From Sphingobium cloacae (GTDB lineage Bacteria; Pseudomonadota; Alphaproteobacteria; Sphingomonadales; Sphingomonadaceae): 64,000 bases of DNA. Below, piece after piece: positions 42,021-58,132 of the stretch. The notes below the pieces were generated by a model. The model had not been told where the DNA came from. It saw only the letters and a list, made by a program, of their open reading frames with translations, and did not search any database. The stretch is taken from contig NZ_AP017655.1 of NCBI RefSeq assembly GCF_002355855.1, forward strand, positions 3,413,001 to 3,477,000, given 5' to 3'. The number at the start of each line of letters is the position of its first letter. Position 1 is the stretch's first letter. A program made the translations under genes and the position numbers.

Positions 42021-43823
42021 ATGACGACATCGGAAATTCCGGGGAGTGCCTTGACCCCGGAGCAGTGGCGACTGGCAGAGCAGCTTTCGCGGTCGCTGGA
42101 CCCGATGCAGGCGCGCTGGATCAGCGGCTATTTCGCCGGGTTTGACGCGGCGCTGCGCCATCCCCAACCGCAGCCCGCGTCATTCGCGCCTGCCCCTGCG
42201 CGGTCGCTGACGATCCTGTACGGCACGGAAACCGGCAACGCGGCCGAACTGGCGCGGACGCTGGAGGCGGCGGCCAAGGCGGCGGGACTGACATGCGCGC
42301 TGGCCGACATGGCCGATTACAAGGTGCGGCAATTGGGGCAGGAACAGGACCTGCTGGTCATCGTCAGCACCTATGGCGAGGGCGATCCGCCGCAACCCGC
42401 GACCGGCTTCTTCGAATTTGCCGAAGGGCGCAAGGCGCCGAAGCTGGAAGGCGCGCGCTTTGCCGTGCTGGCGCTGGGCGATTCCACCTATGAATATTTC
42501 TGCCAGGCGGGCAAGCGGATCGACAAGCGGTTCGAGGAACTGGGAGCGCAAAGGATCGCGCCGCGCGTCGATTGCGATGTGGATTATGAGGAACCGGCGG
42601 CGGAATGGATCGAGGCCATCGTCGCGCAACTGGCGAGCGAGGCGGAGGCCGCGCCCGGACCGGCTGTTGCGACCGTGTCCGGCGCAGGCGTCGCTCCGGC
42701 TTCGGCTTATGACAAGCGCAATCCCTTTCCGGCGCAGATCGTGGACAATATAGCCATCGTCGGGCGCGGATCGGACAAGGAGACGCGCCATATCGAATTC
42801 TCGCTGGCGGGGTCGGGGCTGCATTATGAGCCGGGCGACGCCATGGGGATCGCCGTGTCCAACGATCCGCAGGTGGTGGCGGCGCTGCTCGATGCGCTGG
42901 GCCTGCCGCCCGATGCGGCGTTCGAGTGGAAGGAGCAGGCGCTTACCATCGGGGAGGCGCTGACTCATCGGTTCGAGATCACCGCCGCGACGCCGCGTTT
43001 CCTGGATTATTGGGCGTTGCTGAGCGATGCGGCGGCCTTGAAGCAGTTGCAGCAGGAGGATCGCGCGGGCGAGCGGTCCGTGTTCCTGCGGACGCATCAT
43101 ATCGTCGATATCGTGCGCCGCTTCCCAGTGGGGGAGGTGATGCCGCAGGGCTTCGTGTCGGCGCTGCGGCCGCTCCAGCCGCGGCTCTATTCGCTGGCGT
43201 CCAGCCTGTCCGCCGCGCCGGAGGAGGCGCATCTGACGGTTTCGCCGGTGCGCTATGCGCTGCATGGGGAGGCGCGGCATGGGGTCGCGTCCTGCCTGCT
43301 GGCGGATCGCGCGCCGCCCGATACGACGCTGCCGGTCTATATCCAGAGCAATCCGCATTTCCGCCTGCCGGGCGACGACAAGCCGATCGTCATGATCGGG
43401 GCGGGAACGGGCGTCGCGCCCTATCGCGCCTTCATGCAGGAGCGGGAGGCGCGGGGCGCGGAGGGCAAGAGCTGGCTGTTCTTCGGGGAGCGGCGGTTCC
43501 GCACGGATTTCCTCTATCAGACCGAATGGCAGGGCTGGCTGAAGGACGGGACGCTGAACCGGATGGATGTCGCCTTCTCCCGCGACGGGGAACAGAAGGT
43601 TTATGTCCAGCATCGGATGAAGGAGCAGGCGCGCGACCTGTTCGGATGGCTGGAGGACGGCGCGCATGTCTATGTGTGCGGCGATGCGGCGAATCTCGCG
43701 CCGGACGTGCATCGGGCGCTGATCGACATCGTGGCGCAGGAATCGCGCACCAGCCATGAGGCGGCGGAGGATTATGTGCGCTCGCTCCAGGCCGACCACC
43801 GTTACCAGCGCGACGTGTATTGA
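42021..43823 (+). CDS. cysJ: Sulfite reductase (NADPH) flavoprotein subunit
   Basis: The 600-residue diflavin reductase has a flavodoxin (FMN) domain from about residue 63 (LTILYGTETGNAAELARTLE, with VSTYGEGDPPQPATGFF), a connecting FAD-binding ferredoxin-reductase region (RLYSLASSL) and an NADPH-binding end (GAGTGVAPYRAFMQEREARG, then YVCGDA). It passes electrons from NADPH to the siroheme subunit CysI for sulfite-to-sulfide reduction. GGGGATAAG lies before the ATG. It is followed by cysI 8 bp later. An upstream ATG with a better ribosome site (41942) is out of frame. Confidence 0.95.
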   Translation: MTTSEIPGSALTPEQWRLAEQLSRSLDPMQARWISGYFAGFDAALRHPQPQPASFAPAPARSLTILYGTETGNAAELARTLEAAAKAAGLTCALADMADYKVRQLGQEQDLLVIVSTYGEGDPPQPATGFFEFAEGRKAPKLEGARFAVLALGDSTYEYFCQAGKRIDKRFEELGAQRIAPRVDCDVDYEEPAAEWIEAIVAQLASEAEAAPGPAVATVSGAGVAPASAYDKRNPFPAQIVDNIAIVGRGSDKETRHIEFSLAGSGLHYEPGDAMGIAVSNDPQVVAALLDALGLPPDAAFEWKEQALTIGEALTHRFEITAATPRFLDYWALLSDAAALKQLQQEDRAGERSVFLRTHHIVDIVRRFPVGEVMPQGFVSALRPLQPRLYSLASSLSAAPEEAHLTVSPVRYALHGEARHGVASCLLADRAPPDTTLPVYIQSNPHFRLPGDDKPIVMIGAGTGVAPYRAFMQEREARGAEGKSWLFFGERRFRTDFLYQTEWQGWLKDGTLNRMDVAFSRDGEQKVYVQHRMKEQARDLFGWLEDGAHVYVCGDAANLAPDVHRALIDIVAQESRTSHEAAEDYVRSLQADHRYQRDVY

Positions 43824-43831
43824 GGGACGCC

Positions 43832-45539
43832 ATGACCAGCATGACCATCGACCGCAGCCATGACCTGTCCCAGCCGCTCGACCGGCTGAGCGCCGACGAA
43901 CGGATGAAGGACGCCAGCGATTTCCTGCGCGGGACCATCGCGACGGGATTGCTGGACCGGATCACCGGGGCGGTGCCTTCGGCCGACGACGTGAAGCTGA
44001 TGAAGTTCCACGGCATATACCAGCAGGACGACCGCGACGTGCGCGACGAGCGGCGGCGGCAGAAGCTGGAGCCTGCCTATCAGTTCATGATCCGGGTGAG
44101 GCTGCCCGGCGGGGTGTGCACGGCGGCGCAATGGCTGAAGCTGGACGAGCTGGCGCGGGCGCATGGCGGGCAGACGCTGCGGATCACGACGCGGCAGACG
44201 TTCCAGTTCCATTGGGTGCTGAAGGATAGCTTGCGGCCGATCATTCAAGGATTGCACGAGACGCTGCTGGATACCGTCGCGGCCTGCGGCGACGACAGCC
44301 GCGGGGTCATGTGCACCGTCGATCCGCAAAGCTCCCGCTTCCATGCCGAGGTCGCGGCGATGGCGAAGCGGGTGAGCGACCATGTGATCCCCAAGACCCG
44401 CGCCTATCATGAAATCTGGTATGGCGACGAGCGGGTGGCGTCGTCCGAGCCGGAGGAGCCTTTTTACGGGCGCACCTACATGCCCCGGAAGTTCAAGATC
44501 GGCTTCGCGCTGCCGCCGTCCAACGACATAGATGTCTATGCGCAGGATCTGGGCTTCATCGCCATCGAAGGGCCAGACGGGCTGGCGGGGTTCAACGTCG
44601 CCATCGGCGGGGGCATGGGGCGCACCGATCAGGCGCCGCACACCTATCCGCGCCTGGCGAGCGTGATCGGCTATGTGCCCGCCGACCGGGTGATCGCCTG
44701 CGCGGACGCAGTGATGACGGTGCAGCGCGACTATGGCGACCGCAAGGACCGGCAGCGGGCGCGCTTCAAATATACGATCGACGACAAGGGGCTGGACTGG
44801 ATCAAGGGCGCAATCGAGCGGGTGATGGGCGAGCCTTTCGAGGAGGCGCGGCCTTTCCTGTTCACGTCCAACGGCGACAGCTTCGGGTGGAACGAGACGC
44901 CTGACGGCCGCCTGCATCGGACCGTCTATGTGCAGAACGGGCGGCTGGACCTGAAGCTGCTGGACGCCTTCCGCGACATCGCGCGGGTCCATCGCGGCAC
45001 GTTCCGCATGACGCCCAACCAGAATGTCATCGTCGCGGGCGTGAAGGCGGAGGATCGGGCGGCCATCGACGCGCTGCTGGCGGAGCATGGGCTGGAGGAG
45101 GAAAGTGCGTCGCCGCTGCGGCGCAACGCCATCGCCTGCGTGGCGCTGCCGACCTGCGGCCTCGCCATGGCGGAGAGCGAGCGCTATCTGCCGGACCTGC
45201 TGGGCAGGATCGAGGAGATGATGGACCGGCACGGCCTTTCCGGCGAACCGATCACCGTGCGGATGAGCGGTTGTCCCAATGGCTGTTCGCGGCCCTATAT
45301 CGCGGAGATCGGCTTCACCGGGCGCGCGCCGGGCAAATATAATCTCTATCTGGGCGGCGGCTTCCATGGCGAGCGGCTCAACCGCATGGTGCGGGAGAAT
45401 GTGGGCGAGGCGGCCATGCTGGAAGTGCTGGACGACGCGCTGGGGCGCTATGCCCGCGAGCGGGAACCGGGCGAGCCTTTCGGCGATTTCACCATAAGGG
45501 CCGGGATCGTGCGCGAGGTGACGGAAGGGCGCTATTTCA

Positions 45540-45547
<8 letters not shown>
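43832..45547 (+). CDS. cysI: Sulfite reductase (NADPH) hemoprotein beta subunit
   Basis: The 571-residue siroheme enzyme reduces sulfite to sulfide with six electrons from CysJ. The siroheme/[4Fe-4S] cysteines are seen as CVALPTCGLAM (C-x5-C) and MSGCPNGCSRP (C-x3-C). Nitrite/sulfite-reductase ferredoxin-like half domains appear as RITTRQTFQFHWV and FRMTPNQNVI. GAGGGACGCC precedes the ATG at 43832; a TTG four codons earlier overlaps the cysJ stop and is less likely. The stop codon overlaps the metB-like gene's start by 8 bp, linking sulfide production to its use. Confidence 0.96.
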
Positions 45548-46709
<1,162 letters not shown>

Positions 46710-47345: not shown

Positions 47346-47492
47346 GCAGCCTCTTCGCTTCCCTGTAACAGGGGGAGCCGAATCCTCCTGTGAACGGATC
47401 GTCCGCGAGGCGGCCGCCGCTGTCCCCCGGGGGTTTCCTTGGCGGGCAATTGTCCTAAAGAGGGGCCTTCGCATGGAATCGGGAGTTTGCGC

Positions 47493-48602
<1,110 letters not shown>

Positions 48603-48616
48603 GAGGAGAGAATGCG

Positions 48617-49000
48617 ATGTTCAGCCATGTGACGGTCGGGGCGGACGATCTGGAAAAGTCCCGGACATTCTACGACGCCCTGCTGGGTTCGATCGGCTAC
48701 GGTCCGGGCGTGCCGTTGAAGGAGGACCGCTACGCCTATCTGTCGGACAACGGGGCCTTCATGATCGTCCGTCCCATCGACGGGAAGGAAGCGACGCACG
48801 CCAATGGCGGCACGATCGGCTTTGCCTGCGATTCGCCGGAGAAGGTGGAGGCATGGCACGAAGCGGGCCTCGCTCATGGCGGCACCTCCATCGAAGACCC
48901 GCCGGGCGTGCGCGCCATGCCGTTCGGCAATCTGTATCTCGCCTATCTGCGCGATCCCTATGGCAACAAGCTTTGCGCCATGCATCGGATGGCGGGCTGA
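48617..49000 (+). CDS. VOC-family (glyoxalase/bleomycin-resistance-like) protein
   Basis: The 127-residue protein is a VOC-fold protein opening FSHVTVGADDLEKSRTFYDALLGSIGYGP and ending LAYLRDPYGNKLCAMHRM, the usual positions of the metal-ligand His and Glu. One ligand, His4 (FSHVT), is present; the C-terminal acidic ligand is not evident, so it may not bind metal as glyoxalase I does. It lies between frmA and fghA, so it is expected to work on formaldehyde or glutathione conjugates, but no activity is known. Confidence 0.85.
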   Translation: MFSHVTVGADDLEKSRTFYDALLGSIGYGPGVPLKEDRYAYLSDNGAFMIVRPIDGKEATHANGGTIGFACDSPEKVEAWHEAGLAHGGTSIEDPPGVRAMPFGNLYLAYLRDPYGNKLCAMHRMAG

Positions 49001-49012
49001 ACCGGGGCGGAG

Positions 49013-49855
49013 ATGGAAACGCTCTCGACCCATCGGGCCCATGGCGGCGCGCAGGGCGTGCATCGCCATGCGTCGGCGGCGACGGGGACGGAGATGACCT
49101 TTTCCGTCTTCGTGCCGCCCCATGCGGAAGGCGCGCGGCTGCCGGTGGTCTGGTATCTGTCCGGCCTGACCTGCACCCATGCGAATGTGACCGAAAAGGG
49201 CGAGTTCCGCCGCGCCTGCGCCGAGCTTGGTCTGATCTTCGTCGCGCCCGACACCAGCCCCAGGGGCGAAGGCGTGGCGGACGATCCCGAAGGTGCCTAT
49301 GATTTCGGGCTGGGCGCGGGCTTCTATGTCGATGCGACCCAGCCGCCCTTCGCGGCCCATTATCGCATGTGGTCCTATGTGACGGAGGAACTGCCCGCCC
49401 TGATCGCGGCGCATTTCCCTGCCGACATGGCGCGTCAGTCGATCATGGGGCACAGCATGGGCGGGCATGGCGCGCTGACCATCGGGCTGACGTTCCCGGA
49501 TCGCTTCAGGGCGGTGTCGGCCTTCGCGCCGATCGCCGCGCCCGCCCGGGTTCCGTGGGGGGAAAAGGCGCTGGCCGGTTATCTGGGGGACGACCGGACG
49601 GCCTGGCGCGCGCATGATGCCGTCGCGTTGATCGAGGATGGAGCGCGGCTGCCCGACCTGCTGGTGGATCAGGGCGATGCCGATCCGTTCCTGGAAGAAC
49701 AGCTCCGGACGCCATTGCTGGAAGAAGCCTGCCGTGCGGCCGGGCAGAAGGCGACGATCCGCATGCAGCCGGGCTATGACCACAGCTATTATTTCATCTC
49801 CACCTTCATGGATGAGCATCTGCGGTGGCATGCCGACCGGCTGCGCGCGGCCTGA
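49013..49855 (+). CDS. fghA: S-formylglutathione hydrolase
   Basis: The 280-residue esterase-D-type alpha/beta hydrolase releases formate and glutathione from S-formylglutathione, the second step after FrmA. Nucleophile Ser148 is in GHSMGGHGAL, with WYLSGLTCTHANVTEKGEF (oxyanion region) and GYDHSYYFISTFMDEHL carrying the catalytic His. It is 13 bp after the VOC gene. The convergent apbE gene follows after 32 bp. Confidence 0.96.
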   Translation: METLSTHRAHGGAQGVHRHASAATGTEMTFSVFVPPHAEGARLPVVWYLSGLTCTHANVTEKGEFRRACAELGLIFVAPDTSPRGEGVADDPEGAYDFGLGAGFYVDATQPPFAAHYRMWSYVTEELPALIAAHFPADMARQSIMGHSMGGHGALTIGLTFPDRFRAVSAFAPIAAPARVPWGEKALAGYLGDDRTAWRAHDAVALIEDGARLPDLLVDQGDADPFLEEQLRTPLLEEACRAAGQKATIRMQPGYDHSYYFISTFMDEHLRWHADRLRAA

Positions 49856-49886: not shown

Positions 49887-50858
49887 TCACCCGTCCAGCA
49901 TCGCGGCGAGGGCAGGCGTCATATATTCCCGCGCGCGGTCGCCCTCGCGCCGGACGAGGCGGATGGCGAGGCCGTGGCGGGTGGCGAGGGCCATGCCGCG
50001 ATCATGACCGAGGACGGTGACGGCGGTCGCCCATGCGTCGGCCAGCATGGCGCTTTCATGCAGCACGGTGACGGCGGCTACATCATGCGCGATGGGCGCA
50101 CCGGTCGCCGGATCGATGCTGTGGGAAAGGCGCTGGCCGCCTTCCATGCGGAAGCGGCGATAGTCGCCGGAGGTGGCCACGGACAGGCCGCAAAGCGCGA
50201 TGCGAAGCGTGGGGATGGACAGGCCGGGCGGGGAATCCGCGTCGACCCACCATGGCTGGAGGTCGGGCCTCACGCCCGCGCCATGGAGTTCGCCGCCGAT
50301 CTCGATCAGGAAATGGTGGAGGGATCGCGCCTTCAACGCCTGCGCCACGGCGTCGACGGCATGGCCTTTGGCGATGCCCGAGAAGTCGAGCGTTACGTCG
50401 GCGAGGCGTCGGGCGCGGGAGCCGTCGACTTCTATCGCCTGCCATGGCGGAGAGGCGGCGGCGGGCGTGCCTGCTCCGCTTCCGGGGCCGAAACCCCAGT
50501 GGGCGACCATGTGGCCGATGGCGGGGTCGAAGGCTCCGCCGGAGAGGCGCGCCATGTCCAGCCCGGCGCGCAGGACCGTCATCATCTCGTCGGGAAGGGT
50601 CATCCATTGGCCGGGGGGCAGGCGGTTGAAGCGGCTGATGTCGGAATCCGCCTCCCAATTGCTCATCTGCGCGATGATGCGGGCAAGGATGGTTTCGATC
50701 AGCGCCGCGCAGTCCGCGGGCGCGTCGACGATGCGGGCGGACCAGCTCGTGCCCATGGTGGGACCGCCCAAGTCCGCGATCCGGCCCGCGCGGTTGCGGC
50801 CCTTGAACGAGTCGGGCGAGAGGTCGGGCGGGATGGCGATGCGCAGGGCGGGGGGCAT
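49887..50858 (-). CDS. apbE: FAD:protein FMN transferase
   Basis: The 323-residue protein attaches FMN to a Thr in target proteins. The family motifs are LGGPTMGTSWSA, SNWEADSDISRFN, SGGAFDPAIG, LDFSGIAKGHAVDAVAQAL and HSIDPATGAP. The Mg-binding and FAD-contact residues are all in place. There is no signal peptide or lipobox, unlike many periplasmic ApbE proteins, so it may act in the cytoplasm, or a different start is used. It is the last gene of a same-strand set with the PepSY, DUF2271 and DUF4198 genes, the second of which carries a flavinylation-type sequence. Confidence 0.95.
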   Translation of the reverse strand: MPPALRIAIPPDLSPDSFKGRNRAGRIADLGGPTMGTSWSARIVDAPADCAALIETILARIIAQMSNWEADSDISRFNRLPPGQWMTLPDEMMTVLRAGLDMARLSGGAFDPAIGHMVAHWGFGPGSGAGTPAAASPPWQAIEVDGSRARRLADVTLDFSGIAKGHAVDAVAQALKARSLHHFLIEIGGELHGAGVRPDLQPWWVDADSPPGLSIPTLRIALCGLSVATSGDYRRFRMEGGQRLSHSIDPATGAPIAHDVAAVTVLHESAMLADAWATAVTVLGHDRGMALATRHGLAIRLVRREGDRAREYMTPALAAMLDG

Positions 50859-50938
50859 GGATGGTCGTTCCTTTGCTGGTCCCGGCCTGAATCAAGAGGG
50901 AGGGCGATTATGTCCTTTGCAAACCCGGTATGGAAGGC

Positions 50939-51141
50939 GGCTTTGGATGGGGAGCGGACAGTCTGCTTTCCTAACTCCGTTCGCCCTGAGCGAAGTCGAA
51001 GGGCACGGCCGACCGTAGGGAGGCCCCTTCGCTCCGCTCAGTGGAGAGCTTCGACTGCATTGGAGATGCAGTTTATCCTGAGCGACTGCTGCAAGCAGTC
51101 AGTCGAAGGGCTCAGCCCGAACGGAGATTGAATCTCCGCAA
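50939..51141. repeat. Palindromic intergenic repeat, type 1 (copy C, long form)
   Basis: The outer parts equal copies A and B (CTTTGGATGG..GCGGACAGTCTGCTTTCC, CTGAGCGAAGTCGAAGGGC, CTCAGCCCGAACGGAGATTGAAT). Inside is an extra nested stretch: CTTCGACTG (51049-51057) is inverted as CAGTCGAAG (51100-51108) and contains a perfect 7-bp hairpin GACTGCT-GCA-AGCAGTC (51084-51100). The 313-bp gap 50859-51171 holds only this element and possible leader sequence. Confidence 0.75.
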
Positions 51142-51171
51142 ATGGCCGGAAGCCGCCCAGGAACGCCTGGT

Positions 51172-52050
51172 TCAGGGGGCCAGCACTTCCAGCGTGGTGA
51201 TGTAGGAAGCGCGGCGCGGCGGAGGGCCGGCGGGGACGGGCGGCGGCGACTTCGGCGCGGCTGCGCCCTGCGCTTCGCCCATGCCGCCGCCGGGGCCGCC
51301 TTCGCGCTCGCTGGCGAGGCTGACGTTCATCCAGTACATGCCCGGCTGCGGCCAGTTGACCGACACCTTGCCGTCCGCGCCCGTGCTGAGGTCCATCTGG
51401 CCCAGCGAATCCCGGTAACGGATCCCGCCGGGGATCACCGTGACCTTGAGGCCCGAGGCGGGCTTGCCGTCCAGCAGGAACTGGAAGGTCGCGCTTTCGC
51501 CCGAAACAAGGTCGTTGGGATGGGTGACCGGCACCATCTCGATGCCCTGGCCGGTCGGCTTGAAGAGATCGCTGGTGGGCGCGCCCAGCGTCACGAAAAT
51601 CTCGTTGCGGCTGATGGATTCGGCCGTCTGCACATCCGTCGCCCCGGCGGGGAGCGCGGTGGCGAGCGTGTCCTTCGTCGTGCCGCGCGGCAGGCGTTCG
51701 CGCTTGCCGTTCAGCATGTAGCTGCCCATCAGGCCGCTCGACACATTGGCGATGCGATAGGTGCCCGGCTGGGTCAGATGCACGTCGAAGGTCGAGCGAT
51801 AGCGGCCCTTGGCGGCGTTTTCGATCCTGCCCGCCGAACCGTCCGGCTGCGTGACGGCGATCTGGTCGGTCGCCATCGGGAAATGCTCGAAATAGAAAAG
51901 GTCGTTGGAGATGGCGGCGTCCACCGTCACCCAGCTATCCGTGCCGGACAGCACGGTGGAGGAGGGCATCATCCACTGGCGGTGCGCCTGCGCCGCGCCG
52001 GAGAGGGTGAGGGCGGCAAGCGCGCCCGCGATCAGAAATCTGGCCTTCAT
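51172..52050 (-). CDS. Exported DUF4198-family protein
   Basis: The 292-residue product has a signal peptide (residues 1-22, ending GAAQA). The mature protein then begins HRQWMMPSSTVLSGTDSW, so His23 would be the first residue. Two beta-rich halves follow; the C-terminal part contains GKPASGLKVTVIPGGIRYRDS and YWMNVSLASE, and the tail is Gly/Pro-rich. The first-residue His is the feature that could form a copper-brace-type metal site, as in CopC-like and other exported proteins, but this is speculation. GGGGA lies six bases before the ATG at 52050. It is 11 bp downstream of the DUF2271 gene. Confidence 0.88.
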   Translation of the reverse strand: MKARFLIAGALAALTLSGAAQAHRQWMMPSSTVLSGTDSWVTVDAAISNDLFYFEHFPMATDQIAVTQPDGSAGRIENAAKGRYRSTFDVHLTQPGTYRIANVSSGLMGSYMLNGKRERLPRGTTKDTLATALPAGATDVQTAESISRNEIFVTLGAPTSDLFKPTGQGIEMVPVTHPNDLVSGESATFQFLLDGKPASGLKVTVIPGGIRYRDSLGQMDLSTGADGKVSVNWPQPGMYWMNVSLASEREGGPGGGMGEAQGAAAPKSPPPVPAGPPPRRASYITTLEVLAP

Positions 52051-52061
52051 TGGACTTCCCC

Positions 52062-52598
52062 TTATTTCCCGATGCTGAGGCTGACCGCCCCCAATTCCGT
52101 CGATCCCTTGGCGCGCAGCACCGCGCCGGGCTTTTGCGGCCAGGCGAAGGGCACGCGCACGACTTCGCGGCCGCCGACTTCGCGCGCGGCTTCCACGATC
52201 AGCGTGTAATTGCCCGGCGCAAGCTGGCCCAGCGGCCCCTTGCCGGTGGCGAAGCTGACCTTCTGGTCGCCCGGCGCGCGGGTCGCGCCGGTGACGCCAT
52301 CGGCGGGGAAGGTCATCGTCCGGCCGGAAGCGCGCCACCATTGCCGCACGTCGCGCAGCCATTTGGTGCCTTCGCCATTCTTCATGTCATAATCATACCA
52401 GACCGACAGGGTGCGCGGCGCCGCGCCTTCCTTTTCCAGCCAGATGGCGACATAGGGGCGGTGATATTCGGCCACCGACAGGCGCGGAATATTGACGGTG
52501 AGGTTCAGCGTTTCCGCCTGCGCGGGCATGGCGGCGAGCGCGCCGGTCGCGCCCAGCGCGGCCCCGCCGGTCAGCAGCAGTCTGTGGCTGATCTGCAT
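52062..52598 (-). CDS. Exported DUF2271 protein with flavinylation motif
   Basis: The 178-residue protein has a Sec signal peptide ending AMPAQA (about residue 28) and the DUF2271 core: LNLTVNIPRLSVAEYHRPYVAIWLE, DYDMKNGEGTKWLRDVRQWW. Residues 100-106 read DGVTGAT, which matches the ApbE recognition pattern D-x-x-[S/T]-G-A-[S/T] used in NqrC/RnfG, so Thr106 is the expected FMN attachment site. ApbE is encoded 1.2 kb downstream on the same strand. ATG at 52598 is preferred to an upstream ATG because the signal peptide starts there. Confidence 0.9.
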   Translation of the reverse strand: MQISHRLLLTGGAALGATGALAAMPAQAETLNLTVNIPRLSVAEYHRPYVAIWLEKEGAAPRTLSVWYDYDMKNGEGTKWLRDVRQWWRASGRTMTFPADGVTGATRAPGDQKVSFATGKGPLGQLAPGNYTLIVEAAREVGGREVVRVPFAWPQKPGAVLRAKGSTELGAVSLSIGK

Positions 52599-52615
52599 GG
52601 TTGTTCTTTTCCCTG

Positions 52616-53263
52616 TCAGTGGATGAAGACGATGGCGAGGATCGCCGGGATGGCGAGGCCGATGGCGACCAGCGGCCATGTGCTGGGCCGCTTGGCCGCG
52701 TGGAGTTGCAGCAGCAGCAGGCCGGTCAGAGCGAAGAGGAAGCAGGCGACGGAGAAGATGTCGATGAACCATTTCCATACCGTGCCGGTGTTGCGGCCCT
52801 TGTGCAGGTCGTTGAGATAGCTGATCCAGCCGCGGCTGGTCGCTTCGCTGGTGACTGCGCCGCTGTGCCGGTCGATCGCGACCCAGCCGTCGCCGCCCGG
52901 GCGGGGCAGGGGCAGATAGACTTCATCGGCCGACCATTCCGCCTCGCCGGTGCCGCGCTGGCCGATTTCCTTCTGGACCCATTGGGCGATGTCGGCGGGC
53001 AGCGGCTTCTTGCTGTCGGGCTTGTCGTCGGGCGCGACCTGTTTCAGCAGGGCGGGGGGCAGGGTCGCGGCCTTCTCCACCGTCTGCGGCGCGCCTTCGA
53101 CATCGGCGGCATGGTTGAGCGTGATGCCGGTGAAGGCGAAGAGCAACAGGCCGATCAGGCTGACCGCCGAGCTGATCCAGTGCCAGGCGTGAAGCTGCTT
53201 CAGCCAGAAAGCCTTGGGGCTTTTCTTCTTCCTCTTGGGCTGAAGTTGAGCGGGAGCGTGCAT
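52616..53263 (-). CDS. PepSY-domain membrane protein
   Basis: The 215-residue inner-membrane protein has a basic N-terminus, a first helix (about residues 27-49) with HAWHW at its start (His25, His28) and His51 after it. A periplasmic PepSY-like domain contains GGDGWVAIDRHSGAVTSEATSRGWISYLNDLHKGRNTG. Two closing helices follow, the last ending LAIPAILAIVFIH. PepSY-TM proteins of this kind occur with flavinylated proteins and iron-uptake genes and can carry haem through the membrane histidines. It is the first gene of the set and starts 42 bp after a Fur-like palindrome. The ATG at 53263 has only a weak ribosome site. Confidence 0.88.
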   Translation of the reverse strand: MHAPAQLQPKRKKKSPKAFWLKQLHAWHWISSAVSLIGLLLFAFTGITLNHAADVEGAPQTVEKAATLPPALLKQVAPDDKPDSKKPLPADIAQWVQKEIGQRGTGEAEWSADEVYLPLPRPGGDGWVAIDRHSGAVTSEATSRGWISYLNDLHKGRNTGTVWKWFIDIFSVACFLFALTGLLLLQLHAAKRPSTWPLVAIGLAIPAILAIVFIH

Positions 53264-53304: not shown

Positions 53305-53323
53305 TAACGCGAACGACTCGCAA
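53305..53323 (-). promoter_or_regulatory. Candidate Fur-type operator upstream of the PepSY-DUF2271-DUF4198-apbE set
   Basis: The minus strand reads TTGCGAGTCGTTCGCGTTA, an imperfect palindrome (GCGA-ACGAC-TCGC core on the plus strand) that matches the Fur-type pattern TTGCGAATGATTCGCATT at about 13 of 18 positions. It is weaker than the fumC candidate. Position before the first gene supports it. Confidence 0.4.
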
Positions 53324-53467: not shown

Positions 53468-56400
53468 TTAGCGGCCCAGCAACCCGCGTGCCTGTCCCGC
53501 GATTTCCGCGAGCATGGCGACATTGGGCGCGGCCGCCGCGCGGGCGCGCTGGACGAGGGTGCGGAACTGGCGGATGCGGGGGTCTTTTTCCTTCAGCCAG
53601 TTTTCGACATGGGCGGCGATGTCCTTGCTCTTCGCCTGGGCGAGGAGGTCGAGCCGCACCTGCTGCATGTCGCGGGCGATGCCGGAAATGAGCAGCCGTT
53701 CCCATGGATCGGTCGGCTCCATGCGGGCGGCGGCGGACTGGACCCAGTCGATGCCGACCGCTTCGCCCAGATGGGTGAAGGCGCGGGTGAGGGCGACTTC
53801 TTCCACGCCCAGCTTTTCGGCCAGCATGGCGATGCCGACCGCACCGTCCAGCTTGAACAGGCCCGCGGTGCGATGGACCAGTTTTTCCGGCGCGCCCAAG
53901 GAGAGGAGGTGATCGGTGACGGCGGCGGTGCGGCGAAGCGCTTCGCTGGTGAGGAGGTCGTCGACCTTGCTTGCGAGCTTGCCGACGCCCTTGGCGAGCA
54001 GGGCGTGGCCCGCTTCCGGCAGGGTGCCGGTGGGGACGGAGCGCAGGATGTCCGCGATCTGGGCGCGCATGCCGCCGGCGATATGGCCGAACAGGGCGAG
54101 ACGGGCCGCTTCGGACATGTCCGCCGCGTCGATGTCGTCCCACAGCTTGTGGATGTCGTAGAGCCGTTCGGCGATCAGGAAGGCGCTGGCGAGGTCGCCC
54201 GTCGAGCAGCCTTCCTCCTCCGCCAGTTCGAGCGGGTGGATGAGGCCAAGGCGGTTGACGATGCGGTTCGCGACCTTGGTGGCGATGATCTCTTTCCGAA
54301 GGGCGTGGACGGCGATGGCGTCCGCTTCCTTCTTCTGCATCTGCGGCGGGAAGGCGGCCATGAGTTCGCCGGTCATGGAAGGATCGGTGGCGAGGGCGCT
54401 TTGCTCGATCGCGTCCTGCAAGGCCAGCTTCGCGGTGGAAAGCAGCACGGCGAGTTCGGGACGGGTGAGGCCCATGCCGTCCTGTCCCCGGCGCAGGAGC
54501 TGGTCGTTCGCGGCGAGCCCCTCCACCTGCCGGTCGAGCCTGCCCGCTTCCTCGAAGGTTTCGATGAGGCGGACATAGCTGGCAAGGTCCGCCGCGCCGC
54601 CGCTTTCCGCGATGGAGAGGCCGAGCGCCTGCAAGCGGTTGTCCTCCAGCACGAGGTCCGCGACCGCATCGGTCATGCTTTCGAGCAGCGCGTTGCGCGC
54701 GTCGAAGGCGAGGCGGCCTTCGGCCATTTCCTTGTTGAGCGCGATCTTGATGTTGACTTCATTGTCGGAGCAATCGACGCCCGCGCTATTGTCGATGAAG
54801 TCGGTGTTGATGCGCCCGCCGCGTAGCGAGAAGGCGATGCGCGCGGCCTGGGTGACTCCCAGGTTCGCGCCTTCGCCCACGACCTTGACGCGCAAGTCCT
54901 CCGCATTGACGCGGAGGCGGTCGTTGGCGGGGTCGCCGACATCGGTCTGGCTTTGCGCGGCGGCCTTCACATAGGTGCCGATGCCGCCGAACCAGAGCAG
55001 GTCGTTGGGGCTTTTGAGGATGGCGGAGATGAGGGCGGTCGGCTCCATTTCCGTGGCGTCGACGCCGAGGACCGCCTGCATTTCCGGGGTGAGGGGGATG
55101 CTCTTGAGCGAACGGGGGAATATGCCGCCGCCCCTGGAGATGAGCGCCTTGTCATAATCCTCCCAGCTTGAGCGGGGGAGGTTGAAGAGGCGCTGCCGTT
55201 CCGCCCAGCTTGCCGCCGGGTCGGGATCGGGGTCGATGAAGATGTGACGGTGGTCGAAGGCGGCGACCAGCTTGATCGCCTGCGAGAGCAGCATGCCGTT
55301 GCCGAACACGTCGCCCGACATGTCGCCGCAGCCGACGACCGTGACCGGCTCGCTTTGCACGTCCACACCCATTTCGGCGAAGTGGCGGCGCACGCTGATC
55401 CATGCGCCGCGCGCGGTGATGCCCATCGCCTTGTGGTCGTAGCCATGGCTGCCGCCGCTGGCGAAGGCGTCGCCCAGCCAGAAGTCGCGATCCAGCGCGA
55501 TGGCGTTGGCAACATCGGAGAAGGTCGCCGTGCCCTTGTCCGCCGCGACGACGAAATAGGGGTCGTTGCCGTCATGGATGACGACCTGCGCGGGGTGCTT
55601 GACCTTGCCCTTGACGATATTGTCGGTGACGGAAAGCAAGGCGCGGATGAAGATGCGGTAGCTTTCCGTGCCCTCCGCCATCCATGCGTCGCGGTCGACC
55701 TGCGGGTTGGGAAGCTGTTTCGGGTAGAAGCCGCCTTTCGCGCCGGTGGGGACGATGACGGCGTTCTTCACGCGCTGCGCTTTCATGAGGCCGAGGATTT
55801 CGGTGCGGAAATCGTCGCGGCGGTCGGACCAGCGCAGCCCTCCGCGCGCCACCGGACCGGCGCGCAGGTGAATGCCCTCCACGCGAGGGGAATAGACCCA
55901 GATCTCGCGCCAGGGCAGCGGGGCGGGAAGGCCCGGCACCTGCGCGCTGTCCAGTTTGAACGCGAGCGCTTCGGTCGAGGCGGGAGCGAAGAAATTGGTG
56001 CGCAGCGTTGCGGCGATGACGGCGCGCAGCAGGCGCAGCACGCGGTCCTCGTCGATGGCCGTGACTTTTTCGAGGCCGGTTTCGATGGCGGCCTGCGCGG
56101 CGGCGGCGCGGGCTTCGCCCTCTTTCGCGGCGGGATCGTGGAGCGCGATGAACAGTTCGACCAACTGATGCGCCACATCCTTTTCCCGACGCAGCGTATT
56201 GGCGACGGTGGCCCGGCTATAGGCCATGCCGGTCTGGCGCAGATAGCTGAACAGGGCGCGGAACAGCACGACCGCGCGCGGCGAAAGGCCCGCCGTCACG
56301 ATCAGTTCGTTGAGGCTGTCATCCTCCGCCACGCCCTCGATCACCTGCGCTATGGCTTCGGTGACGACATCGGCGCGGGCAACCACGGCTTCGGCATCGC

Positions 56401-58132
56401 CGCCTGCGGGCAGTTCCAGCACGAAGCGCTGCACATGGCCGAGCGCGCCGCCGTCGATGGCGGTCGTCATCTCGTCGATCACGCGGAACCCGAAATTCTC
56501 GAAGGCGGGGACGACTTCGGACAGGGCGATGGCGTCATGGCTGTAGAGCTTGAGGCGCAGGCGTTCCGCGCTGTCCTCCGCATTGCGGTAGATGCGGATC
56601 GACTTGTCGCCGGGGCCGGACAGGCCATGGATCAGGCGGATGTCGATGGCCGCTTCCGCCGGGCCCGCGCCGTTGCGATAGGCCATCGGGAAACCGTTGG
56701 CGAAACGCTGGGCGAGTGCGGCGGCGCGGCCCGGCTCCTCGGTTTCGGCGAGCGATTCCTCGACGGCGGGAAGCCAGCCGCGCACCATCTTGCGCAGGCG
56801 TTCGTCCAGTTCCGCGTCGTCGGGCACCACGCCGCCGTCGCGCAGGTCGAGCGTGATGCGCAGCAGGGCGAGGCCCCCTTCCTCCAGCGCGATCGACCAG
56901 CTGAGCACCGCGGCACCATTGGCGGCCTGCGACAGCATATCCTGAATGGAGACGCGGCGGGCGGTCGAAAGCTCTTCGCGGGGGAGCCAGACGAAGGCGT
57001 AGAGATGGCGGGCGAGCGCGCTGGTGGCAAGCGCCAGCTTCGGGCGCGGGCGGTCGGCCAGCGACATGAAGGTGAGCGCCAGCCGCTCCAGCGTCTCGCG
57101 GTCGAAGCCGATCAATATGTCGTGCGGCAAGGCGGTCAGCGCATGAACCAGCGTCTTGCCCGCATGGCCAACCGGATCGAAGCCGAATTTCTCCATCAGC
57201 AGCGACAGGGCGGAACGCAGCAGGGGCACCTTGTCCGGCGGCGCGGCGAGGGCGGAGCTGGTCCACATGCCCGCGTGGATGGAGAGGGCGACCACCTCCT
57301 TGCCCTGCCGCACCGGCACGATGATGAGGTCGAGCAGCACATGGCGATGCACGCGCGAGGTGATGTTGGATTTGATGATGAGGGGGACGCGCTTGCCCTC
57401 CTCGAACCAGGCGAAGGCGGCTTTGCGGGAGGCGGGGGCGATCAACGGCTTGTCGCGCAGGGCGCAGATGCCGATGCCGTCCCGCGCCTTGCCGTCGCGG
57501 CCGCAGATTTCATGCCCGGTCTGCGTGAAATGGCGCGAGAGGAACCAGCGGAGCAGCGCCGCGCCTTCCTCGTCGGGGATGGCGTCGGCATCGGCGGCCA
57601 TCGCTTCCTGCATCCGTGGCCAGTCGGCGACGGCGGCGCGCACGTCGGCCAGCGTGTCGCGCAGGTCCTTCTCCAGCGCGCGGCGGACCTTCGCGTCGGC
57701 GCGGTCGGCCTCGATATAGATCATCGATTCGCGGCGGGCGCCCGATGTTTCATCGTCAAGGATCGCCTTCAGCGCCCCCTTGGCGTCGCGGCTGACCGAC
57801 AGGACGGGATGGAGCAGGCGGTGGATGGTGATGTCCTCCGCCGCCAGCGTGTGCGCGATGGAATCGACCAGGAAAGGCATGTCGTCGTTGACGAGGGCGA
57901 TCCGCATGAAGCGGGCCGACACGCTTTCGCCCAGCGTTTCGATGGCGATGGCGGGCTGACCGGGCGCGCGGCTGCCGGCGGTGCCGGCGAGGAAGGCGGC
58001 GGCGTCGGCCAGGGCGGCTTCATCGAACCCTTCGCTCTCGCCGGGCAGCGCGCCGCGGGCCAGCGCGTCTTCCAGCGCCTGGCGGATGGAAAGGTCGACT
58101 TCCTTGATCTTTGGCTCAGCCGCGGCCGTCAT
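53468..58132 (-). CDS. gdhB: NAD-specific glutamate dehydrogenase, large (L_180) class
   Basis: The 1554-residue enzyme oxidises glutamate to 2-oxoglutarate with NAD+. Beginning about residue 700 is the catalytic core with VARGGLRWSDRRDDFRTEILGLMKAQRVKNAVIVPTGAKGGF (nucleotide and substrate-site residues including the catalytic Lys). DMSGDVFGNGMLLS and VVGEGANLGVTQAARI follow. The N-terminal 600 residues are regulatory ACT-like repeats, and the C-terminal part is helical. Length and order match the alphaproteobacterial/pseudomonad L_180 class. It is monocistronic, with a repeat at its 3' end and an IS element 238 bp upstream. Confidence 0.96.
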   Translation of the reverse strand: MTAAAEPKIKEVDLSIRQALEDALARGALPGESEGFDEAALADAAAFLAGTAGSRAPGQPAIAIETLGESVSARFMRIALVNDDMPFLVDSIAHTLAAEDITIHRLLHPVLSVSRDAKGALKAILDDETSGARRESMIYIEADRADAKVRRALEKDLRDTLADVRAAVADWPRMQEAMAADADAIPDEEGAALLRWFLSRHFTQTGHEICGRDGKARDGIGICALRDKPLIAPASRKAAFAWFEEGKRVPLIIKSNITSRVHRHVLLDLIIVPVRQGKEVVALSIHAGMWTSSALAAPPDKVPLLRSALSLLMEKFGFDPVGHAGKTLVHALTALPHDILIGFDRETLERLALTFMSLADRPRPKLALATSALARHLYAFVWLPREELSTARRVSIQDMLSQAANGAAVLSWSIALEEGGLALLRITLDLRDGGVVPDDAELDERLRKMVRGWLPAVEESLAETEEPGRAAALAQRFANGFPMAYRNGAGPAEAAIDIRLIHGLSGPGDKSIRIYRNAEDSAERLRLKLYSHDAIALSEVVPAFENFGFRVIDEMTTAIDGGALGHVQRFVLELPAGGDAEAVVARADVVTEAIAQVIEGVAEDDSLNELIVTAGLSPRAVVLFRALFSYLRQTGMAYSRATVANTLRREKDVAHQLVELFIALHDPAAKEGEARAAAAQAAIETGLEKVTAIDEDRVLRLLRAVIAATLRTNFFAPASTEALAFKLDSAQVPGLPAPLPWREIWVYSPRVEGIHLRAGPVARGGLRWSDRRDDFRTEILGLMKAQRVKNAVIVPTGAKGGFYPKQLPNPQVDRDAWMAEGTESYRIFIRALLSVTDNIVKGKVKHPAQVVIHDGNDPYFVVAADKGTATFSDVANAIALDRDFWLGDAFASGGSHGYDHKAMGITARGAWISVRRHFAEMGVDVQSEPVTVVGCGDMSGDVFGNGMLLSQAIKLVAAFDHRHIFIDPDPDPAASWAERQRLFNLPRSSWEDYDKALISRGGGIFPRSLKSIPLTPEMQAVLGVDATEMEPTALISAILKSPNDLLWFGGIGTYVKAAAQSQTDVGDPANDRLRVNAEDLRVKVVGEGANLGVTQAARIAFSLRGGRINTDFIDNSAGVDCSDNEVNIKIALNKEMAEGRLAFDARNALLESMTDAVADLVLEDNRLQALGLSIAESGGAADLASYVRLIETFEEAGRLDRQVEGLAANDQLLRRGQDGMGLTRPELAVLLSTAKLALQDAIEQSALATDPSMTGELMAAFPPQMQKKEADAIAVHALRKEIIATKVANRIVNRLGLIHPLELAEEEGCSTGDLASAFLIAERLYDIHKLWDDIDAADMSEAARLALFGHIAGGMRAQIADILRSVPTGTLPEAGHALLAKGVGKLASKVDDLLTSEALRRTAAVTDHLLSLGAPEKLVHRTAGLFKLDGAVGIAMLAEKLGVEEVALTRAFTHLGEAVGIDWVQSAAARMEPTDPWERLLISGIARDMQQVRLDLLAQAKSKDIAAHVENWLKEKDPRIRQFRTLVQRARAAAAPNVAMLAEIAGQARGLLGR

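Follow-up and report, generated by a model that had tools for sequence, protein, structure and literature searches.

A probable Fur-controlled flavinylated electron-transfer operon in Sphingobium cloacae with an FMN transferase that lacks a recognisable signal peptide

PepSY-like flavinylation clusters are a described class of bacterial loci, with 3220 counted in 3040 genomes, 2833 of them with DUF2271 and 1500 with DUF4198 (Meheust et al. 2021, eLife; PMC8238504). A role in iron reduction and assimilation was proposed for these clusters, and a DUF2271 protein was flavinylated on co-expression with its ApbE, while a Thr-to-Ala replacement abolished flavinylation (PMC8238504). Caulobacter has a locus, CC3059-CC3063 (CCNA_03155-03159), that is iron-responsive and Fur-repressed (PMC3751524); transposon hits in it lower fitness under ethylenediaminetetraacetic acid, and its first gene was named PepSY-family (PMC11870441). 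Alteromonas DUF4198 and DUF2271 genes adjoin iron-responsive TonB receptors, and these DUF genes too are enriched under iron limitation (PMC7190382). Here we describe a four-gene operon with PepSY, DUF2271, DUF4198 and apbE genes in a 64,000-nucleotide stretch of the Sphingobium cloacae contig NZ_AP017655.1 (positions 3,413,001 to 3,477,000 of the forward strand; hereafter the window). ApbE is the transferase that attaches flavin mononucleotide (FMN) to proteins.

All four genes lie on the minus strand within 49887-53263 (Table 1), and open frames and Pfam (PepSY_TM_like_2, E 9.1e-80; DUF2271, 2e-46; DUF4198, 2.5e-57; ApbE, 1.8e-71) confirmed the gene order given in a preliminary description of this DNA, made from its letters alone. 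The locus has the combination that defines a PepSY-like flavinylation cluster in PMC8238504, namely a PepSY-like protein (PF03929 or PF16357) clustered with ApbE and DUF2271, and it has, through DUF2271, the signal peptide or lipidation asked there of at least one of the ApbE, FMN_bind, DUF2271 and DUF3570 genes. The nearest named relative found was Sphingobium faniae (94% identity over the query region and 96% over the DUF2271 protein). The operon is a sphingomonad example of the published class, with a Fur-like operator; neither the gene set nor the iron link is new. The remark of the preliminary description that the set-up is little studied therefore falls, since the same gene set was described as a class in PMC8238504. 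Its proposals of covalent FMN on DUF2271 and of electron transfer by PepSY are supported, by analogy, by the work on relatives (PMC8238504, PMC3751524, PMC11870441), and its iron link by the same papers together with the Fur-type sites found here. Flavinylation of a DUF2271, Fur binding, the chelation-stress phenotype and metal binding by a DUF4198 were all reported for relatives elsewhere, and would apply to this operon by analogy. Overall, we consider it probable that Fur controls this operon and that it encodes a PepSY-like flavinylated electron-transfer system serving assimilatory iron reduction. The part that deserves specialist attention is the group of leaderless ApbEs with an exported substrate.

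Table 1. Features of the operon, in positions of the window.
Feature	Position	Strand	Basis
Fur-box-like operator TTGCGAGTCGTTCGCG	53308..53323	-	own-genome pattern search; aligned footprint in relatives
PepSY-like three-helix membrane protein (PF16357/PF03929)	52616..53263	-	Pfam; alignment A2; AlphaFold2
DUF2271 protein, Sec-type signal peptide, predicted FMN carrier	52062..52598	-	Pfam; N-terminus; leader rule on relatives
Flavinylation motif D100-GVTGA-T106	52281..52301	-	translation; alignment
DUF4198 protein, signal peptide, mature N-terminal His, predicted periplasmic metal binder	51172..52050	-	Pfam; conservation; AlphaFold2; fold match
Intergenic stretch with repetitive extragenic palindromic (REP)-like repeat between DUF4198 and apbE	50859..51171	.	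313 bp
apbE, FAD:protein FMN transferase without recognisable signal peptide	49887..50858	-	Pfam; PDB relatives; N-terminus

The operator of Table 1 sits between a -35-like TTGCAA (53329-53324) and a -10-like stretch near 53307-53301 (by eye). Genome-wide, its core gave 14 sites with one mismatch allowed, against 2 for a reversed control. Beside these sites are seven extracytoplasmic function sigma factor genes, two TonB receptor genes, one Rrf2 regulator gene, one flavin adenine dinucleotide (FAD)/nicotinamide adenine dinucleotide (NAD) reductase gene and the operon itself; the remaining two sites (L065 and L073) have a methyltransferase pair and a TrbI gene nearby and no obvious iron genes. 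The promoter appears, from this pattern, to carry a Fur box in common with other iron genes, and the genome has two FUR-family genes. Most sphingomonad relatives have TTGCAATTGCGARTCGTTCGCGTTA in their promoters, and Undibacterium has TGAGAATAATTATCA at the corresponding place (both by eye), which we take to be a classic Fur box. Among 104 relatives' promoters, a sphingomonad operator pattern (at most one mismatch) was found in 46, with 0.0 expected, a count that is partly circular because the pattern was written from these same promoters. A general Fur core (at most two mismatches) was found in 29/104, with 0.85 expected from single-base shuffles; the circularity touches neither this count nor the genome-wide sites. 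One or other pattern was present in 73 of the 104 and neither in 31. Taken together, this is good evidence, at the level of sequence, for Fur control of the operon. Some promoters, chiefly those of Sphingobium (L003-L014, L030, L036, L057), share a second conserved block, ACATTTTGATACAATTT-like, which lies upstream from the Fur-like site by about 25 bp (by eye).

We then compared the N-termini of the ApbE and of its presumed substrate. The DUF2271 N-terminus, MQISHRLLLTGGAALGATGALAAMPAQA, reads by eye as a Sec-type signal peptide, and the sequence also bore out the signal peptide earlier ascribed to DUF4198. A home-made signal-peptide rule found leaders in 99 of 106 DUF2271 and 95 of 103 DUF4198 proteins of relatives. 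The ApbE of the window, on the other hand, starts at an ATG with AAGGAA upstream (by eye) and shows at its N-terminus neither the signal peptide nor the lipobox expected of an extracytosolic ApbE. A leader-bearing start hidden upstream was ruled out, as the open frame reaches just 11 codons beyond the ATG before it meets a stop (334 against 323) and has no hydrophobic stretch there. One DUF2271 and one apbE were found in the genome, so that no second ApbE was there to serve DUF2271, and no FMN_bind protein was found. DUF2271 is therefore the sole ApbE substrate among the families searched, which did not include DUF3570 and NqrB.

The same arrangement recurred in relatives. In addition to the named relatives, we used a phylum sample of 398 genomes drawn evenly, 70 of which had DUF2271; 68 places scored above the cut-off, including the window's own, and the other 67 were fetched. 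Our own ApbE profile matched 46 of these 67 loci, four of them as ApbE-DUF2271 fusions. A first version of the leader rule flagged 8 of the 46 ApbEs, including L074 and L075 on an RVLIP-type stretch. The rule was revised after this result by requiring a cleavage-like site and fewer prolines, and the second version flagged 6/44; L027, L099 and L121 were dropped from it for want of an anchor, the first version having seen no leader in L099 and L121. These six are the four fusions, the clear lipoprotein L090, and L082, judged false by eye. Among unfused adjacent ApbEs, a leader was found in 0 of 47 from named relatives and 2 of 40 from the phylum sample (38/40 without), as compared to 63 of 1740 shuffled ApbE N-termini. 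A tree of 84 ApbEs placed the adjacent unfused ones, L090 included, in one group (100/97), and the leaderless label changed twice on this tree against 25.4 times in shuffles. The adjacent unfused ApbE was the sole ApbE in 29 of 42 genomes, as it is in that of the window, and an FMN_bind protein was found in none of these 29.

The simplest reading of a leaderless ApbE with an exported DUF2271, as these sequences suggest, is flavinylation in the cytosol before export. We tentatively propose, at a little short of an even chance, that the ApbEs of DUF2271 operons form a group whose signal peptide was lost and whose substrate receives its FMN in the cytosol and is then exported by Sec. In that case FMN would pass through the membrane already attached to its carrier, and FAD would not have to be exported. 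SecYEG is able to pass small bulky groups. Flavinylation before export also seems biochemically possible because the published assay used leaderless constructs of both proteins in E. coli (PMC8238504). Export of folded FMN-DUF2271 by the twin-arginine translocation (Tat) route was ruled out as a general solution: a Tat-like motif occurred in 0 of 106 leaders and any RR in seven. Our literature searches, which did not extend to the gene-by-gene signal-peptide listing of PMC8238504, found no paper stating flavinylation before export. In Listeria, an energy-coupling factor transporter route has been reported (PMC9973259). If the proposal is true, a whole bacterial group would have a different answer, and the Sec pathway would gain a covalently flavinylated substrate.

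Alternatively, ApbE might enter the periplasm by some cryptic export path or piggy-back, and flavinylate DUF2271 there, as in classical systems. Most characterised ApbEs are indeed membrane-anchored lipoproteins outside the cytosol (PMC12052999), and the tested A. ursilacus ApbE must have a signal peptide, because one was removed for the assay (PMC8238504). The leadered L090 sits within the otherwise leaderless group, and in 20/20 genomes with a distant apbE only, the best-scoring ApbE has a lipoprotein-type leader (by eye); DUF2271 can therefore be served from outside the cytosol in those genomes. The scripted rule covered 9 of 30 distant-ApbE loci and flagged all nine, and some of these genomes hold further ApbE-family genes without a leader by eye (L166, L167, L168, L170). 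For the adjacent enzymes, however, the rule that recognises nearly all DUF2271 and DUF4198 leaders found none in the 47 named and 38 of the 40 sampled ApbEs, and 29 of 42 genomes offer no second ApbE for the periplasmic role. We regard a periplasmic ApbE as less likely than not for this group.

Several further features of these apbE genes were observed. Of 89 unfused adjacent ApbEs, 60 have a short R-[VI]-x-[IV]-P-like stretch (RIAIPP, RVLIP; 50858-50800 in the window) ahead of the domain, against 0 of 26 distant ones; it might be a docking element. In 38 of 76 genes (for example L005-L007, L009-L012, L015, L016, L018, L019 and L023), a CTG read in the apbE frame overlaps the stop of DUF4198 (CTGA), while the window has ATG; 23 of the 38 have no ATG, GTG or TTG nearby in the apbE frame. 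Translation of relatives' apbE may be coupled and begin at this CTG, so that little of the enzyme would be made. A DUF4198-ApbE frameshift fusion at CCC-TGA was ruled out in relatives, the apbE frame being -1 with no slippery heptamer (by eye). In L027, apbE appears to be in two pieces in different frames, through either a frameshift or an assembly error. In the window, a REP-like repeat at 50975-51126, whose 27-base core has 44 genome copies (at most three mismatches) against 0 for a reversed control, may reduce the extent to which apbE and the gene for its substrate are transcribed together. This gap and the leaderless apbE are two details absent from the preliminary description.

The PepSY protein is predicted to be a two-haem electron conduit with His28, His51, His154 and His188 as candidate ligands. 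Its AlphaFold2 model has a predicted local distance difference test (pLDDT) score of 93.9; a PDB sequence search gave no match, and Foldseek with the model gave none at E 0.001 or better. A flavodoxin and NAD-binding reductase is encoded close by, in the same orientation, in 45 of the 63 other loci, but in none of the 41 loci from named sphingomonads, a few of which are truncated at contig ends, and one of seven same-family loci of the sample (6/46 scanned with Pfam); the window operon has none nearby. The closest relative of this reductase in the genome, at 33% identity in two pieces, is the flavoprotein encoded at 42021-43823; as one of a sulfite-reductase pair on the opposite strand, it was not counted as part of the operon. 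There, at 42021-46709 of the plus strand, sulfite reductase flavoprotein and haemoprotein genes are followed by a cystathionine-type pyridoxal phosphate gene (the last by eye). The FAD/NAD reductase with its own operator-like site (L071; one mismatch) is a further candidate donor.

The DUF4198 protein appears to belong to a metal-binding family, since its AlphaFold2 model (pLDDT 91.9) matches the overall fold of Zcp (9MHI-9MHO) and IsDUF4198 (9GCB). Mature position 1 is His in 97 of 104 DUF4198 proteins, and in an alignment (A1) with rows picked for His1, His155 was present in 49/50 and His34 in 39/50. Six divergent loci (five laid out) have the same genes followed by an ATP-binding cassette transporter permease and ATPase family; a scan of one of each gave ABC-3 for the permease and ABC_tran for the ATPase. 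Two TonB-receptor families are found in the operon's vicinity at 15 and 10 loci (one of each scanned). As a metal chaperone, DUF4198 could instead serve nickel, zinc, cobalt or copper, the redox arm then maintaining the proper state of that metal or of its ligand. We consider this improbable, given the Fur-type operators that precede this operon and those of 73 of the 104 relatives, the response of Caulobacter CC3059-63 to iron and Fur (PMC3751524), and a Trp at mature residue 18, where IsDUF4198 has its nickel ligand His18 (by numbering only).

DGVTGAT (residues 100-106), at the place described earlier, is the only D-x-x-[ST]-G-A-[ST] motif in the DUF2271 protein, and it fits the [S/T]GA[S/T] signature of ApbE-modified DUF2271. 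Conservation shows it to be no chance occurrence: in an alignment of 111 rows, which takes in the window's protein and leaves out the truncated L054, position 106 is Thr in 110 rows and Ser in one, and position 100 is Asp in 102. The preliminary description had asked whether the motif is conserved only where apbE adjoins the gene, and the answer was mixed to negative. Over all rows the strict [ST]GA[ST] occurs in 60 of the 84 whose apbE is adjacent and in 13 of the other 27 (Fisher p 0.036), as that idea would have it, but in the phylum sample alone the figures are 15/35 and 9/19 (p 0.78), and the acceptor residue is kept in both groups. The signature seems, from these rows, looser than the published motif, and what appears to last is the acceptor residue, whether or not apbE is adjacent. 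This may be because apbE is present elsewhere in 20 of 20 sampled genomes without an adjacent copy. Thirteen loci (L127-L138 and L140), left out of the alignment because they were too weak against our DUF2271 profile, all read TGAS or SGAS (by eye), and the acceptor there would therefore be Ser; this second DUF2271 type has a leaderless ApbE about 2.5 kb off in 11 of the 13. The fused ApbE-DUF2271 proteins L122, L123, L125 and L126 have a leader, and their motif column reads ARET, TRPT, SRPT and SGPT, so the acceptor site may differ. A PDB sequence search with DUF2271 gave no match. That DUF2271 is unflavinylated, its motif being a structural relic and ApbE having another, unrecognised cytosolic target, would agree with the leaderless Klebsiella ApbE that modifies a soluble fumarate reductase (PMC12052999), with the variants TGPT, SSAT, TSPT and TQPT next to apbE and with a strict motif no commoner beside apbE in the phylum sample, but is very improbable in view of the acceptor residue that these variants retain, the FMN_bind searches described above (DUF3570, NqrB and other substrates not searched), the existence of fusions, albeit departing from the strict motif, and the demonstrated flavinylation of a DUF2271 (PMC8238504).

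These data suggest the following working model. Under low iron, Fur would leave the operator, and PepSY, DUF2271 and DUF4198 (and apbE) would be made. ApbE would transfer FMN from FAD onto Thr106 of DUF2271. PepSY, with two predicted bis-His haems in three helices, would take electrons from quinol or from a donor in the cytosol and deliver them through the inner membrane to FMN-DUF2271. The flavin protein would then reduce periplasmic ferric iron, whether free or bound by a siderophore. The released divalent metal may be received or kept by DUF4198, with its N-terminal His, for uptake through the inner membrane.

The same-strand upstream neighbour of the operon is a large NAD-glutamate dehydrogenase gene (53468-58132; Pfam). 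Downstream and facing apbE, 47439-49855 holds an esterase, a glyoxalase-fold protein (Pfam) and a zinc-type alcohol dehydrogenase, a row that presumably resembles the glutathione-dependent formaldehyde pathway.

With the clusters of PMC8238504 the window has in common a PepSY_TM-like protein, DUF2271, DUF4198 and ApbE together, the motif, and the role proposed in reducing and assimilating iron. It differs, taking those clusters as described rather than one by one, in an ApbE without recognisable leader, in having no flavodoxin/NAD reductase nearby and in an apbE split off by a REP-like repeat. Caulobacter CC3059-CC3063 has the same four genes in the same order with a Fur site overlapping the promoter, and a fifth, for a sulfite-reductase-flavoprotein-like reductase, that the window operon lacks. 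The Pseudomonas siderophore reductase FoxB (7ABW) and Vibrio VciB likewise are PepSY-type membrane proteins with conserved His expected to hold haems; the window protein differs from them in its three helices and separate flavin carrier, and its structural match is weak to FoxB, the one of the two compared. The modelled DUF4198 shares its overall fold with Zcp and IsDUF4198, and an N-terminal His with IsDUF4198, at 15-16% identity and with a second metal ligand that may differ. Finally, the cytosolic Klebsiella ApbE for fumarate reductase resembles that of the window in having no signal peptide (PMC12052999), but its target is cytosolic, whereas the sole recognised target of the window's ApbE is exported.

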